A program made the translations under genes and the position numbers. A DNA stretch of 64,000 nt from Geomonas sp. RF6 (GTDB taxonomy: Bacteria > Desulfobacterota > Desulfuromonadia > Geobacterales > Geobacteraceae): contig NZ_CP087999.1 in NCBI RefSeq assembly GCF_021044625.1, forward strand, positions 3,059,001 through 3,123,000. The letters are read 5' to 3'. The notes under the pieces were generated by a model. That model made no database searches, was not told where the DNA came from, and saw only the letters and a list, made by a program, of their open reading frames with translations. Below, in pieces: positions 27,697 through 38,707 of the stretch (its first letter is position 1; each line of letters opens with the position of its first letter).

Positions 27697-27770
27697 GAAA
27701 GCCGGATGCGGGAAAACTGCACCTCCGGTTTGATGAGGGAGGACAGGGTAACACCTGCTCTCTACTCTAT
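27697..27770 (+). ncRNA. Group II intron 3' end (domains V and VI), remnant
   Basis: Bases 27699-27731 fold as a domain V: lower helix AAGCCGGA/TCCGGTTT, a two-base bulge (CC) on the 3' side, and upper helix TGCGG/CTGCA capped by a GAAAA loop, with the AGC triad in place at 27700-27702. A domain VI-like hairpin follows (GGGAGGACAGG...CCTGCTCTC) with an unpaired A near the end and a terminal CTAT at 27770. No reverse-transcriptase frame or 5' intron end is present upstream; the IS30 element sits there instead. A truncated, probably inactive intron. Confidence 0.65.
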
Positions 27771-35795: not shown

Positions 35796-36266
35796 TTACT
35801 CCCGAAGATACTTTTGGATCAGCTGCCGTACTGTGGAGTCGCACTGGAAGATTCTGTCGGATTGCCTGTTGGAGGAAAGGATGTACTGGGCGAACCTGGC
35901 ATCACTTTTCAGCATGTGGTACTGAACCCAGTTGTTCAGACGCATCGTTTGGTCCAAAGCCTGCTTTACTCTTTCCTCAGGGAGACCCAGTAACTCATAC
36001 ACCATGGTCCTGAAATGCTCGTGCTCTTTCTTGTGCTCCTCCGAGTTGACGTACTGAGTCTGCTTCATGCACAGTTCTTCAAAGTCAAACTGGAATCCGA
36101 CATGAGCAAGGAGGACACGGAGGGTGCTTTTGAGTGACGGCACGGTGATGTCGCTTCTCTTGAAATCATCAAAATACTTCTTCACCAGGTCTCTGAGCAG
36201 CTTGTTCTGTACGTCCAGTTCTTCGATCCCCAGCACATAGGTCATGTCCCACTGGAATTCAGGCAT
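35796..36266 (-). CDS. Hemerythrin-like protein with altered diiron site
   Basis: A 156-residue hemerythrin-fold protein controlled by the upstream riboswitch. The N-terminus FQWDMTYVLGIEELDVQNKL matches bacteriohemerythrin (W...Y.vGi..iD.QH). Of the seven canonical ligands, Glu63, His78, His82, His117 and Asp122 are present (FEELCM, HKKEH, YHMLKSD). The two His that hold the second iron are replaced by Asn21 (D.QN instead of DEQH) and Gln59 (QFDFEE instead of HF..EE); His55 lies one helix turn before Gln59. The length exceeds a bare domain by about 25 C-terminal residues. ATG 36266 has GGAG upstream. It may bind one metal, or none; a sensor or binding role is inference. Confidence 0.85.
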   Translation of the reverse strand: MPEFQWDMTYVLGIEELDVQNKLLRDLVKKYFDDFKRSDITVPSLKSTLRVLLAHVGFQFDFEELCMKQTQYVNSEEHKKEHEHFRTMVYELLGLPEERVKQALDQTMRLNNWVQYHMLKSDARFAQYILSSNRQSDRIFQCDSTVRQLIQKYLRE

Positions 36267-36308
36267 ATAACTCTCCGACAATACATCAGCAGTGCACGGC
36301 GCCACGGG

Positions 36309-36360
36309 AAAATAAAAAAGCCGGGGCCCAATATCAGGTATGATATTTCGGCGACCCGGC
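36309..36360 (-). terminator. Riboswitch expression platform: intrinsic terminator
   Basis: On the minus strand AGCCGGG, an inner hairpin AATATCA/TGATATT, then CCCCGGCT and TTTTTTATTTT. The 5' arm AGCCGGG is also the 3' strand of the aptamer core, so aptamer and terminator exclude each other. This predicts that ligand binding turns expression on. Confidence 0.85.
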
Positions 36361-36421
36361 TGTCTCAGTGAGACCCTTAGGCTTTCCGTCCCATCCTTGC
36401 GGATGGTTTAGTATTGTCGGT
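36348..36421 (-). ncRNA. GEMM-I riboswitch aptamer, cGAMP-type signature
   Basis: The minus strand reads CCGACAATACTAAACCATCC, then GCAAGGATGGGACGGAAAGC and CTAAGGGTCTCACTGAGACA, then GCCGGGTCGCCG. This matches GEMM-I in all landmarks: AAACC, a GNRA-capped hairpin ATCC-GCAA-GGAT, GGGAC.GAAAGCC with the intercalating A47, and a second hairpin with receptor. Numbered on the V. cholerae Vc2 aptamer, position 20 is A instead of G, the change associated with 3',3'-cGAMP-responsive riboswitches of Geobacter. The 21-46 pair is C-G instead of G-C, a compensatory change. It controls the hemerythrin-like gene, 82 bp downstream of the aptamer. Confidence 0.9.
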
Positions 36422-36447
36422 TTATCATGTGTGTCTGGATGGCCCGT

Positions 36448-36476
36448 AAATTAACTCCTGTAGTGGTCTCTGTCAA
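36448..36476 (-). promoter_or_regulatory. Sigma-70-type promoter of the riboswitch transcript
   Basis: On the minus strand TTGACA (36471-36476), exactly 17 bp, then TAATTT (36448-36453). This places the transcription start about 20 bases before the aptamer. Confidence 0.7.
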
Positions 36477-36538: not shown

Positions 36539-37294
36539 TCACTCCGCCATGTACCGTTTCACCAGCTGGTACACGGCCTCATCGATACATTCCCGCAGGG
36601 CCCTGTCTATGCCTTCACTCTGGGCTTTCTTGTACGTGAGGTCGGCATCGACGTTGCTGTCGGTCAGCATCCTCAGCATGTTGCCGATCCCCGATGTGCT
36701 GCTTCCTGATGCCTTTATCTCCTTTCTCACCGGTACGGAGTCGATTATCTTTCCGGTGCTCGCGTTGATGATCCGCACGTCCAGGCCGATGCTCTTTGCT
36801 TCCTTGGAACGACTTGTCTCCATTCCGCCCATCGACAGGCCGACTTCTCCCTGTTCTTCACTGCCGCTGTATTCGGAAATGACACCTTCACAGATGTAAT
36901 CCGCCCCCGTCAGCTTGCTGGTGCCGGCGTTGCCGGTGGCTTCTTCACTACTTTGCAGTTCCTTTTCCCGCACCACTCCCGCTTCGAGCCGCTCCCTTTC
37001 CACAACCGCGAAAGCTCCGGAATTCACAAGGGCGGTGACGAACATGTCTGTCGCAGCACGCGAGGAGACGTCGGGGACGCCGCTGCGAAACTCGTAGATG
37101 GCGACGGTCATCTTAGGCCCCGGTTTTATCTTCAGCTTTGTGAGCTTCGATGCTGCGGACTCTTCCTGGTCACCGGCTTTTGAAAAAGAAAACGCCATGC
37201 CCGACCCCGGATAGGCCAGGGCGACGAGTGTCACCATGCCGACTACCACCGCTAGCGACCTGAAAGCCGTGCCTGTAACTCTTTTCGCGCTCAT
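36539..37294 (-). CDS. CsgG-like secreted protein
   Basis: A 251-residue exported protein of the CsgG/curli-assembly-like family. The signal peptide spans about residues 1-35 (ending near PGSGMAFS) and lacks a lipobox Cys. The core shows MTVAIYEFRSGVPDVSSRAATDMFVTALVNSGAFAVVERERLEAGVVREKELQ, TGADYICEGVISEY, LDVRIINASTGKIIDSVPV and a C-terminal helix ending AVYQLVKRYMAE, the usual CsgG order. CsgG itself forms an outer-membrane pore for curli export; no csgA/B-type genes are near. It starts 33 bp after the TIR-protein stop codon on the same strand, so both form an operon, with the TIR gene first. Confidence 0.85.
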   Translation of the reverse strand: MSAKRVTGTAFRSLAVVVGMVTLVALAYPGSGMAFSFSKAGDQEESAASKLTKLKIKPGPKMTVAIYEFRSGVPDVSSRAATDMFVTALVNSGAFAVVERERLEAGVVREKELQSSEEATGNAGTSKLTGADYICEGVISEYSGSEEQGEVGLSMGGMETSRSKEAKSIGLDVRIINASTGKIIDSVPVRKEIKASGSSTSGIGNMLRMLTDSNVDADLTYKKAQSEGIDRALRECIDEAVYQLVKRYMAE

Positions 37295-37327
37295 GTTTCA
37301 CCTCCGCTGTTGCGTGGTTCCCTCCAC

Positions 37328-38707
37328 CTATGGCAGTGAGATCCGCTGACTTTTTCCGGCGGCGAAGCTGATGACGGCTTCGTTGCTCCCGAAGGTGACT
37401 CCCTCTGGAAGGGATGGGACGGTCACCGGTTCCTGGCGCTTTCCGTGCGTCAGGTCGATCGGGATCACCCCGTATTTGTCCTCGTTTCGCACCTTGAAGA
37501 CGACAACTCCCCATTTGCCGTCGGAGGCCTTGTACACCTTCTGGACGCGATCCGGGTCGAGGGAGATGTGCTCCTTCTCTTTTCCGTCAGCGCCTACGAG
37601 GATGACGGTGCTGCGGTCCTGGGTCGTGTTTATCGTGTAGAGCTGCGGAGAAGCCGGCTTTGCTGGCGCGGGTTCGGGCGCCTTTGCTGGAGGCGTAGCC
37701 ATGGCCGTCGTTGTCTTCTCGTCTGCTTTTTCCGCGGGTTTCGTGGAGCCCGTCGGCTGCTCGGGATTCGCCGGAGTGGGGGGCGCTTGCGCGACGTTCG
37801 CCGCTGGGGCGCCGGCAGATGGCTTCTGCTCCGCCGGCTGCGGTGCCGCCGGTGCGGGAGCGGGAGCCGCTGCTGGTGTCGCAGCCTTTTCCGGCTCACT
37901 CCCTTTTGCGGCGGCTGATTGCCCAGATGGTGCCGGCTGTGGCTCCTCCTTTCCTTTGGCCGCTGACTTTGGCCTCTTCGCCTCTTTCTTACTCTGTGAC
38001 GCTGGCGTTGTCCCGGGTACCTTGTCTGACACTTCCGCGGTCGGCCCCCCAGCGGCACTCGTAGGGCCGGTGGCTACTTCCGGCTGAGTTTTCCTCCCCA
38101 TCTGCCCGCTGTACAGGACGACCGCGGTGACGATCGCCGCAAGGAGCAGTGTGCCGGCGATCAGATACCCCCTCCTGGTCCCCTCGTCGTGGTGCGGCCG
38201 ACGCGGTTCAGGCTTTCTCTGTCTTCTGGCAAGGGGGGATGGGGCGATCCCCAGATCCCTTTCCAGCACCTCGCACAGCCTGTTCACATCGTAGTCCCAG
38301 CTTTCGTTGTTGAGCCGAAGGGCCTGGCGCCGGGTGAGGGTTTTCAGGCCGTCTGGCAGATCATCTTCCTTCGGCATCACTGCGTCCTGCACAAGGACCG
38401 GAACGACCCTGATCTTCCGCTCGAGCGCCGCGCTGATTTCGAGTCTCGTGTAATCGTTCGGCTCTTCGAGCCTTCTCCGCCCCGCTGCATCGGTCATCGC
38501 AAGCCAAGCCGGGCCGATGACCGCGATGAGGACCGTGCAGGAACTAACCGCCTTATTGAGCGCCTCTACGAAGTCCTCGCCGATCTCTATCGTGTCGATG
38601 TCCATGAAGACCCGGTCGCATCCGAAGTGGTCCCTCAGATGGTCCGCGAGTCGGCCGGCATACCCAGCGCTGTCGCCGCGCCGGTAACTTATAAAAATTC
38701 CACCCAT
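37328..38707 (-). CDS. TIR-domain transmembrane protein with periplasmic C-terminal domain
   Basis: A 459-residue protein in four parts. Residues 1-150 are a TIR domain (GGIFISYRRGDSAGYAGRL, VFMDIDTIEIGEDFVEAL, VLIAVIGPAW, DYTRLEISAALERKIRVVPVLV); Glu90 in the last block matches the position of the catalytic Glu of TIR NADases. Residues 181-200 (YLIAGTLLLAAIVTAVVLYS) form one membrane helix after a basic stretch, so TIR is cytoplasmic. A low-complexity Pro/Ala/Lys linker (about 205-350) leads to a C-terminal about 105-residue beta-rich domain presumably in the periplasm. The downstream partner is CsgG-like. Function unknown: envelope signalling or a defence sensor are both possible. Confidence 0.85.
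   Translation of the reverse strand: MGGIFISYRRGDSAGYAGRLADHLRDHFGCDRVFMDIDTIEIGEDFVEALNKAVSSCTVLIAVIGPAWLAMTDAAGRRRLEEPNDYTRLEISAALERKIRVVPVLVQDAVMPKEDDLPDGLKTLTRRQALRLNNESWDYDVNRLCEVLERDLGIAPSPLARRQRKPEPRRPHHDEGTRRGYLIAGTLLLAAIVTAVVLYSGQMGRKTQPEVATGPTSAAGGPTAEVSDKVPGTTPASQSKKEAKRPKSAAKGKEEPQPAPSGQSAAAKGSEPEKAATPAAAPAPAPAAPQPAEQKPSAGAPAANVAQAPPTPANPEQPTGSTKPAEKADEKTTTAMATPPAKAPEPAPAKPASPQLYTINTTQDRSTVILVGADGKEKEHISLDPDRVQKVYKASDGKWGVVVFKVRNEDKYGVIPIDLTHGKRQEPVTVPSLPEGVTFGSNEAVISFAAGKSQRISLP

Follow-up and report, generated by a model that had tools for sequence, protein, structure and literature searches.

A predicted cGAMP-type ON riboswitch ahead of a hemerythrin-fold gene in Geomonas sp. 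RF6

A GEMM-I RNA lies directly ahead of a gene encoding a hemerythrin-fold protein on the minus strand of a 64-kb stretch of the genome of Geomonas sp. RF6, which is a single contig of 5.26 Mb. This stretch is the window that we analyzed. The locus raises the question of which cyclic dinucleotide the RNA would bind, whether binding would switch transcription on, and whether the hemerythrin-fold protein is a real output of the switch. Along the minus strand, the end of a CsgG-like gene (36539) is followed by a candidate promoter, the GEMM-I RNA, a terminator, a GGAG sequence and the hemerythrin-fold gene, with no gene intervening between the riboswitch and the last (Table 1). From the sequence and its predicted folds, we read the locus as very probably an ON riboswitch that acts on transcription, belongs to the GEMM-Ib (3',3'-cGAMP) type and controls this single gene.

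Table 1. Features of the riboswitch locus, in window coordinates.
Feature	Position	Strand	Basis
Candidate sigma-70 promoter, TTGACA (36476-36471), 17-nt spacer, TAATTT (36453-36448)	36448..36476	-	Sequence; -35 perfect, -10 weak
P1 5' strand, AUGAUA, pairs with 36345-36340	36423..36428	-	Predicted fold
GEMM-I aptamer, A20 (GEMM-Ib, cGAMP) type	36347..36422	-	RF01051, full length 1-87
Pocket bases A20 (36412), C21 (36411), U22 (36410), G45 (36387), G46 (36386), A47 (36385)		-	Rfam alignment
P2 hairpin, CCAUCC-GCAA-GGAUGG	36391..36406	-	Rfam alignment and predicted folds
P1 3' strand, UAUCAU, reused by the inner terminator hairpin	36340..36345	-	Predicted folds
Intrinsic terminator, AGCCGGG (36361-36355, also the 3' strand of P3) paired with CCCGGCU (36325-36319), inner hairpin AAUAUCA/UGAUAUU, U run to 36314	36314..36361	-	Predicted fold
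Ribosome binding site, GGAG, 6 nt ahead of ATG	36273..36276	-	Sequence
Hemerythrin-fold gene, 156 aa, start 36266	35796..36266	-	Pfam, AlphaFold2, structure comparison

An earlier sequence-only reading of this DNA had called the RNA a GEMM-I aptamer and proposed scoring it with the Rfam model. RF01051 indeed matches with 49.1 bits, above its gathering threshold of 35 (E = 1.4e-6 for 64 kb), and the model is covered from end to end. In the numbering of Vc2, which we take to be the RF01051 model position plus nine, the alignment places an adenine at position 20, the GEMM-Ib letter. Positions 21 and 46 form a C-G pair and positions 22 and 45 a U-G pair, so that the A20 and the compensated flip of the 21-46 pair read from the sequence are both found again on the alignment. 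Compared with other leaders, that of the window has one extra base between P1 and the core, as judged by eye from the alignment. The model R1, used below, was built without P1 because RNAalifold found no P1 in the leader alignment.

At the threshold applied, 27 GEMM-I RNAs were found in the host genome, and the set A20-C21-U22/G45-G46 is present in 22 of them. The remainder have G20 with G21 (three RNAs, L001-L003), A20 with G21 (L004) or G20 with C21 (L022); positions 45-47 of L002, L022 and L026, where the anchor motif occurs twice, were read by eye. The flipped 21-46 pair is thus no peculiarity of this RNA. It is typical of its class within this genome, and we have rejected the idea that it is novel. 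The RNA of the window is a typical representative of the GEMM-I set of the genome and not a lone variant.

The promoter proposed for the unit is present as a TTGACA and a TAATTT element 17 nt apart, but the latter is weak, sharing three of six bases with TATAAT, and is absent from the list produced by a consensus scan. Within the 60-75 bases upstream of the GEMM-I RNAs of the genome, TTGAC can be seen by eye in 10 of the 27 leaders.

We have examined the predicted folding of the leader with and without the terminator. For the complete leader of 127 nt the predicted structure is the terminator, with a free energy of -42 kcal/mol and z = -3.7, and one of 200 shuffled sequences was as good. When the leader is cut before the 3' arm of the terminator, the prediction changes to P1, P2 and a stem resembling P3 (z = -2.25), which 6 of 200 shuffled sequences equalled. 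UAUCAU and AGCCGGG are used in both folds, and the aptamer and terminator states are therefore mutually exclusive. Thus the predicted fold of the complete leader supports the claim that AGCCGGG doubles as the 5' arm of the terminator, and the exclusion of the ligand-bound helix by the terminator in the predicted folds supports a ligand-ON layout. From this we infer the step between ligand and transcription that we propose for this leader. The cGAMP riboswitch of pilM has ON logic of the same type (PMC9262584). A simple pattern of a terminator with a U run was found 3' of 24 of the 27 GEMM-I aptamers, and missed at L001, L017 and L022.

Position 20 had been taken as the established mark of riboswitches that respond to cGAMP. 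It is a position of selectivity, in that an A20G change converts Gm0970 to c-di-GMP, but it is not an absolute mark, because the omcST riboswitch of Geobacter is reported to be sensitive to both cGAMP and c-di-GMP (both from PMC6456294). Exclusive selectivity for one ligand is thus not readable from sequence. The RNA of the window could be a c-di-GMP or dual-ligand switch, working by the same ON mechanism, with c-di-GMP or both nucleotides as its ligand in vivo. In addition to the behavior of omcST, this would be consistent with the name given to the RF01051 family by Rfam, c-di-GMP-I, and with the presence of the G20-type RNAs L001-L003 and L022 in the same genome, where c-di-GMP switching may exist alongside. 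We consider it improbable, since the RNA has A20 together with C21-U22/G45-G46, it took the A20G change to convert Gm0970, and the genome encodes candidate enzymes for the synthesis of cGAMP.

These candidates emerge from a scan of the GGDEF domains. The genome has 31 GGDEF matches. Thirty loci, some of them two halves of one protein, were scanned for motifs, leaving out one weak match without a locus, and the scan gave no output for L049 and L055. Hypr GGDEF enzymes are marked by a serine that replaces aspartate (PMC6456294), and two candidates carry it by motif. L046 reads GHLVGS...GGDEY, and its best match in the PDB is 6d9m, which scores 207.5 bits where the second-best entry reaches 148.1; going by its description, we identify 6d9m with the fusion of T4 lysozyme and GacA of G. 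metallireducens that appears in PMC6456294. L059 reads GYAKGS...GGDDF, and an odd GGDDF motif is also found in GSU1937, the second active enzyme (PMC8835794). The machinery to make cGAMP is therefore predicted to be present in the host, and cGAMP is the likely ligand of the riboswitch in the window.

If cGAMP is the signal, what would it control? The 156-amino acid product matches the Pfam Hemerythrin family (PF01814) with 26.3 bits, just above the cut-off of 25.3, and none of the other eight hemerythrin domains listed for the host scores lower. An AlphaFold2 model (pLDDT 89.4, from 13 alignment rows) is a four-helix bundle. On structure comparison the best 14 of the 994 chains aligned are all hemerythrins, with Z scores from 14.3 to 16.6, led by 2avk at 16.6, and the next row has Z = 12.3. 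Profile, model and structural matches thus agree on a hemerythrin fold.

In classical hemerythrin the O2-binding iron (Fe2) is held by H25 and H54, while H73, H77 and H106 lie on the Fe1 side, and E58 and D111 are the bridging carboxylates. The corresponding residues in the window protein, in the order H25, H54, E58, H73, H77, H106 and D111, are N21, Q59, E63, H78, H82, H117 and D122. DcrH-Hr and bacteriohemerythrin (4xpx, presumably from Methylococcus, and relatives) share with it the four-helix bundle and the last five of these ligands, but they differ at H25 and H54, which are Asn and Gln in our protein, a replacement seen also in its alignment to DcrH-Hr. Sequence identity over the structure alignments is 17-23%. 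We compared the ligands in an alignment of 31 proteins, comprising that of the window, 14 hemerythrins of the Geomonas group that are linked to a riboswitch (described below) and 16 others; a further hemerythrin of the host, L062, falls outside this survey because its match was too weak for the E-value used. The window protein lacks the full set of seven ligands of an O2-binding hemerythrin in this alignment. Glutamine replaces H54 in 3 of the 14 linked proteins, and the other 11 retain all seven ligands. No change at H25 or H54 occurs among the 16 unlinked hemerythrins, one of which (L064) is changed at H73. The three linked genes with glutamine are adjacent in a tree, and therefore reflect few events and perhaps one.

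Variation of the iron ligands has been reported among 106 single-domain hemerythrins, with loss or new function left open by the authors (PMC4919030), so the Asn and Gln changes are not new in themselves. With these two residues the window protein need not carry O2, and it is likelier, on its sequence, to be a one-metal or a sensor or structural version of the fold than an O2 carrier. That it should be an ordinary O2 carrier or buffer turned on by cGAMP is unlikely given the loss of H25 and H54, even though 11 of the 14 linked hemerythrins keep every ligand and O2 sequestration has been suggested as a function of hemerythrins in G. bemidjiensis (PMC2996986). For the modified protein that we prefer, the role that we propose below has about an even chance of being right.

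It is important to ask whether the association of riboswitch and hemerythrin recurs. A survey with Rfam of 32 hemerythrin loci found GEMM-I at that of the window (L060) and at 12 others, and found none at two more hemerythrin loci of the host (L061 and L062). Twenty longer loci were then fetched, chosen largely for GEMM-I already found nearby. Sixteen of these belong to the Geomonas/Citrifermentans genus group (19 genomes, with G037, G045 and G047 outside the survey). At 14 of the 16 an A20-type GEMM-I lies 1.4 kb before the hemerythrin gene, in the order GEMM-I, small protein, DUF4382 protein, hemerythrin, and all 14 RNAs have the A20 pocket set. An upstream GEMM-I is absent from six of the 20 (L106-L111), including the two exceptions within the genus group, L109 and L111, which have a different hemerythrin that falls outside the clade of the 14. 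A hemerythrin-fold target had been regarded as a new kind of output; the combination of A20-type GEMM-I and hemerythrin at these 14 loci means that it is not unique to the locus in the window.

The two intervening genes are homologues of two genes of the host, those for the small protein at L012 and the DUF4382 protein at L020, each of which has its own A20-type GEMM-I RNA. No hemerythrin was found near either in the 6-6.5 kb inspected. The same companions thus stand under A20-type GEMM-I RNAs in both arrangements, and we conclude that the three kinds of product share a regulon. It is arranged as one cluster behind one riboswitch in Geomonas/Citrifermentans, whereas the host genome has three separate riboswitch units. 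The MAG Geobacter sp. UBA4074 provides a third context. Here a hemerythrin ends a run of genes behind an A20-type GEMM-I. The first gene of the run is L,D-transpeptidase-like and shares 58% identity with a different riboswitch target in the host. In a set of 53 named loci, the 1.4-kb arrangement was found in eight and a 3.1-kb arrangement at L129; L144 and L146 have a GEMM-I that does not lie ahead of the hemerythrin on its strand, and the remaining 42 gave no match to R1.

The association does not extend across the family. In 28 other genomes of the family, the Geobacteraceae, not one of the 107 hemerythrins is preceded on its own strand, over a distance of 10 kb, by an A20-type GEMM-I, as judged with R1 at E <= 1e-10 from the best 150 first-look candidates per genome, although the ends of draft contigs may hide some. 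The RNA matches listed numbered 138 and 148, and their positions were compared by eye. We have therefore dropped hemerythrin as a family-wide target of GEMM-I. Even in the host, inspection by eye shows that just one of nine hemerythrins has an A20-type GEMM-I upstream.

The 14 linked hemerythrins form one clade in a tree of 70 sequences (84 rows less 14 near-copies), and so they represent a single event. The window protein has a branch of 3.35 and lies in no supported group, and orthology with the operon hemerythrin of the Geomonas group, to which it is about 30% identical, is unsupported. No relative above 34% identity was found among the matches listed from 117 genomes, which include no other species of the genus of the host, or in the 53 named loci, a set that may omit records from the host itself or from a very near genome.

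It is possible that hemerythrin is a chance neighbour at this one locus. A working riboswitch would have captured a gene at random, and the gene would now be decaying. The long branch, the two missing iron ligands, the lowest of the Pfam scores and the lack of any linked gene among the 107 hemerythrins can all be seen in this light. Such a history is not easily squared with an intact open reading frame, a ribosome binding site and a confidently predicted fold, nor with the two other contexts in which a hemerythrin follows a switch of the cGAMP type; glutamine at H54 in linked but not in unlinked proteins also speaks against it, though this may be one event. Three contexts, though still few, make chance less likely, and we regard incidental adjacency as the less probable account, while giving it more weight than either of the alternatives discussed above.

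In the reading that we prefer, GacA-type Hypr cyclases would raise the level of cGAMP, which would hold P1 and P3 of the aptamer. The terminator could then not form and the hemerythrin-fold gene would be transcribed, while in the absence of ligand transcription would end ahead of the gene. More weakly, from the relatives, hemerythrin may recur as an accessory component of the cGAMP regulon. Its task in cells that adhere to Fe(III) minerals would probably be to handle O2, NO or iron, with the protein of the host species apparently diverged by its exchange of both Fe2 histidines. We suggest tentatively that the Geobacteraceae possess a hemerythrin arm of the cGAMP regulon. A small exported-looking protein, a DUF4382 lipoprotein and a hemerythrin would be kept together in it, whether packed or scattered, while the hemerythrin drifts from diiron O2 binding toward a single-metal fold with loss of Fe2 histidines. 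If this is true, a cyclic dinucleotide known for its role in mineral electron transfer also sets the level of a cytosolic hemerythrin-fold protein, possibly one that handles O2, NO or iron. The locus is simple, with one gene and one aptamer.

The GEMM-Ib riboswitches of Geobacter (pgcA/Gs1761, Gm0970 and pilM) have the same aptamer architecture, A20 and an ON layout based on exclusion of the terminator. Their targets are cytochrome, pilus or envelope genes, in contrast to the hemerythrin-fold protein of the window. GEMM-Ia (c-di-GMP-I) riboswitches such as Vc2 share the RF01051 fold and A47 with our RNA, but the Rfam consensus has G20 and G21-C46 where ours has A20 and C21-G46. The RNA is thus a further member of the established cGAMP-type family of Geobacter, and what draws attention is the recurrent hemerythrin output and the changed iron site. 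Among the papers listed or read in passages, our search found no link between hemerythrin and cGAMP riboswitches, although one listed paper, on a diguanylate cyclase, mentions hemerythrin many times; it did not extend to the target tables of Kellenberger 2015 and Nelson 2015, which may list hemerythrin. There is no mention of hemerythrin in the available parts of PMC8683041 and PMC5732950.

The sequence-only reading had described the known members as controlling genes of extracellular electron transfer. This is too narrow. Published targets of cGAMP riboswitches include lipoprotein transpeptidases (PMC6456294), and in the host genome GEMM-I RNAs precede genes for a NiFe-hydrogenase small subunit, a peptidase M15 protein and a PilZ response regulator, among others. 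Fibronectin type III proteins are also published targets of GEMM riboswitches, with the ligand unstated (PMC2996986).

Several further features were observed. L022 (G000:C1:3266573-3266649) has G20 with the C21-G46 and C22-G45 pairs that otherwise accompany A20, and precedes a GNAT/FemAB-like gene; from its sequence it is possibly a natural intermediate in ligand choice. L004 (G000:C1:2979557-2979643) has the reverse combination, with A20 and an unflipped G21-C46 pair. Among the GGDEF domains, L048 (G000:C1:1470355-1470825) has a threonine at the Hypr position (GHMAGT...GGDEF). Four A20-type GEMM-I aptamers lie in tandem in L028 (G000:C1:3033428-3034088, minus strand), with a terminator pattern after each. 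The gene that follows has a PEP-CTERM-like end, scoring 20.5 bits, just below the cut-off of 20.7, and beyond it are genes that by eye resemble those of polysaccharide export. In L029 (G000:C1, about 1570163-1571122, minus strand) two tandem A20-type RNAs stand ahead of the NiFe-hydrogenase small subunit gene, and three GEMM-I RNAs occur in a row in a relative (G026:C290). Tandem pairs are known from G. sulfurreducens (PMC6456294). Within the window, a TIR-domain protein and then the CsgG-like protein are encoded directly upstream of the riboswitch unit (36539-38707, minus strand), and there is a group II intron match (RF00029, 49.5 bits) at 27697-27770 on the plus strand.
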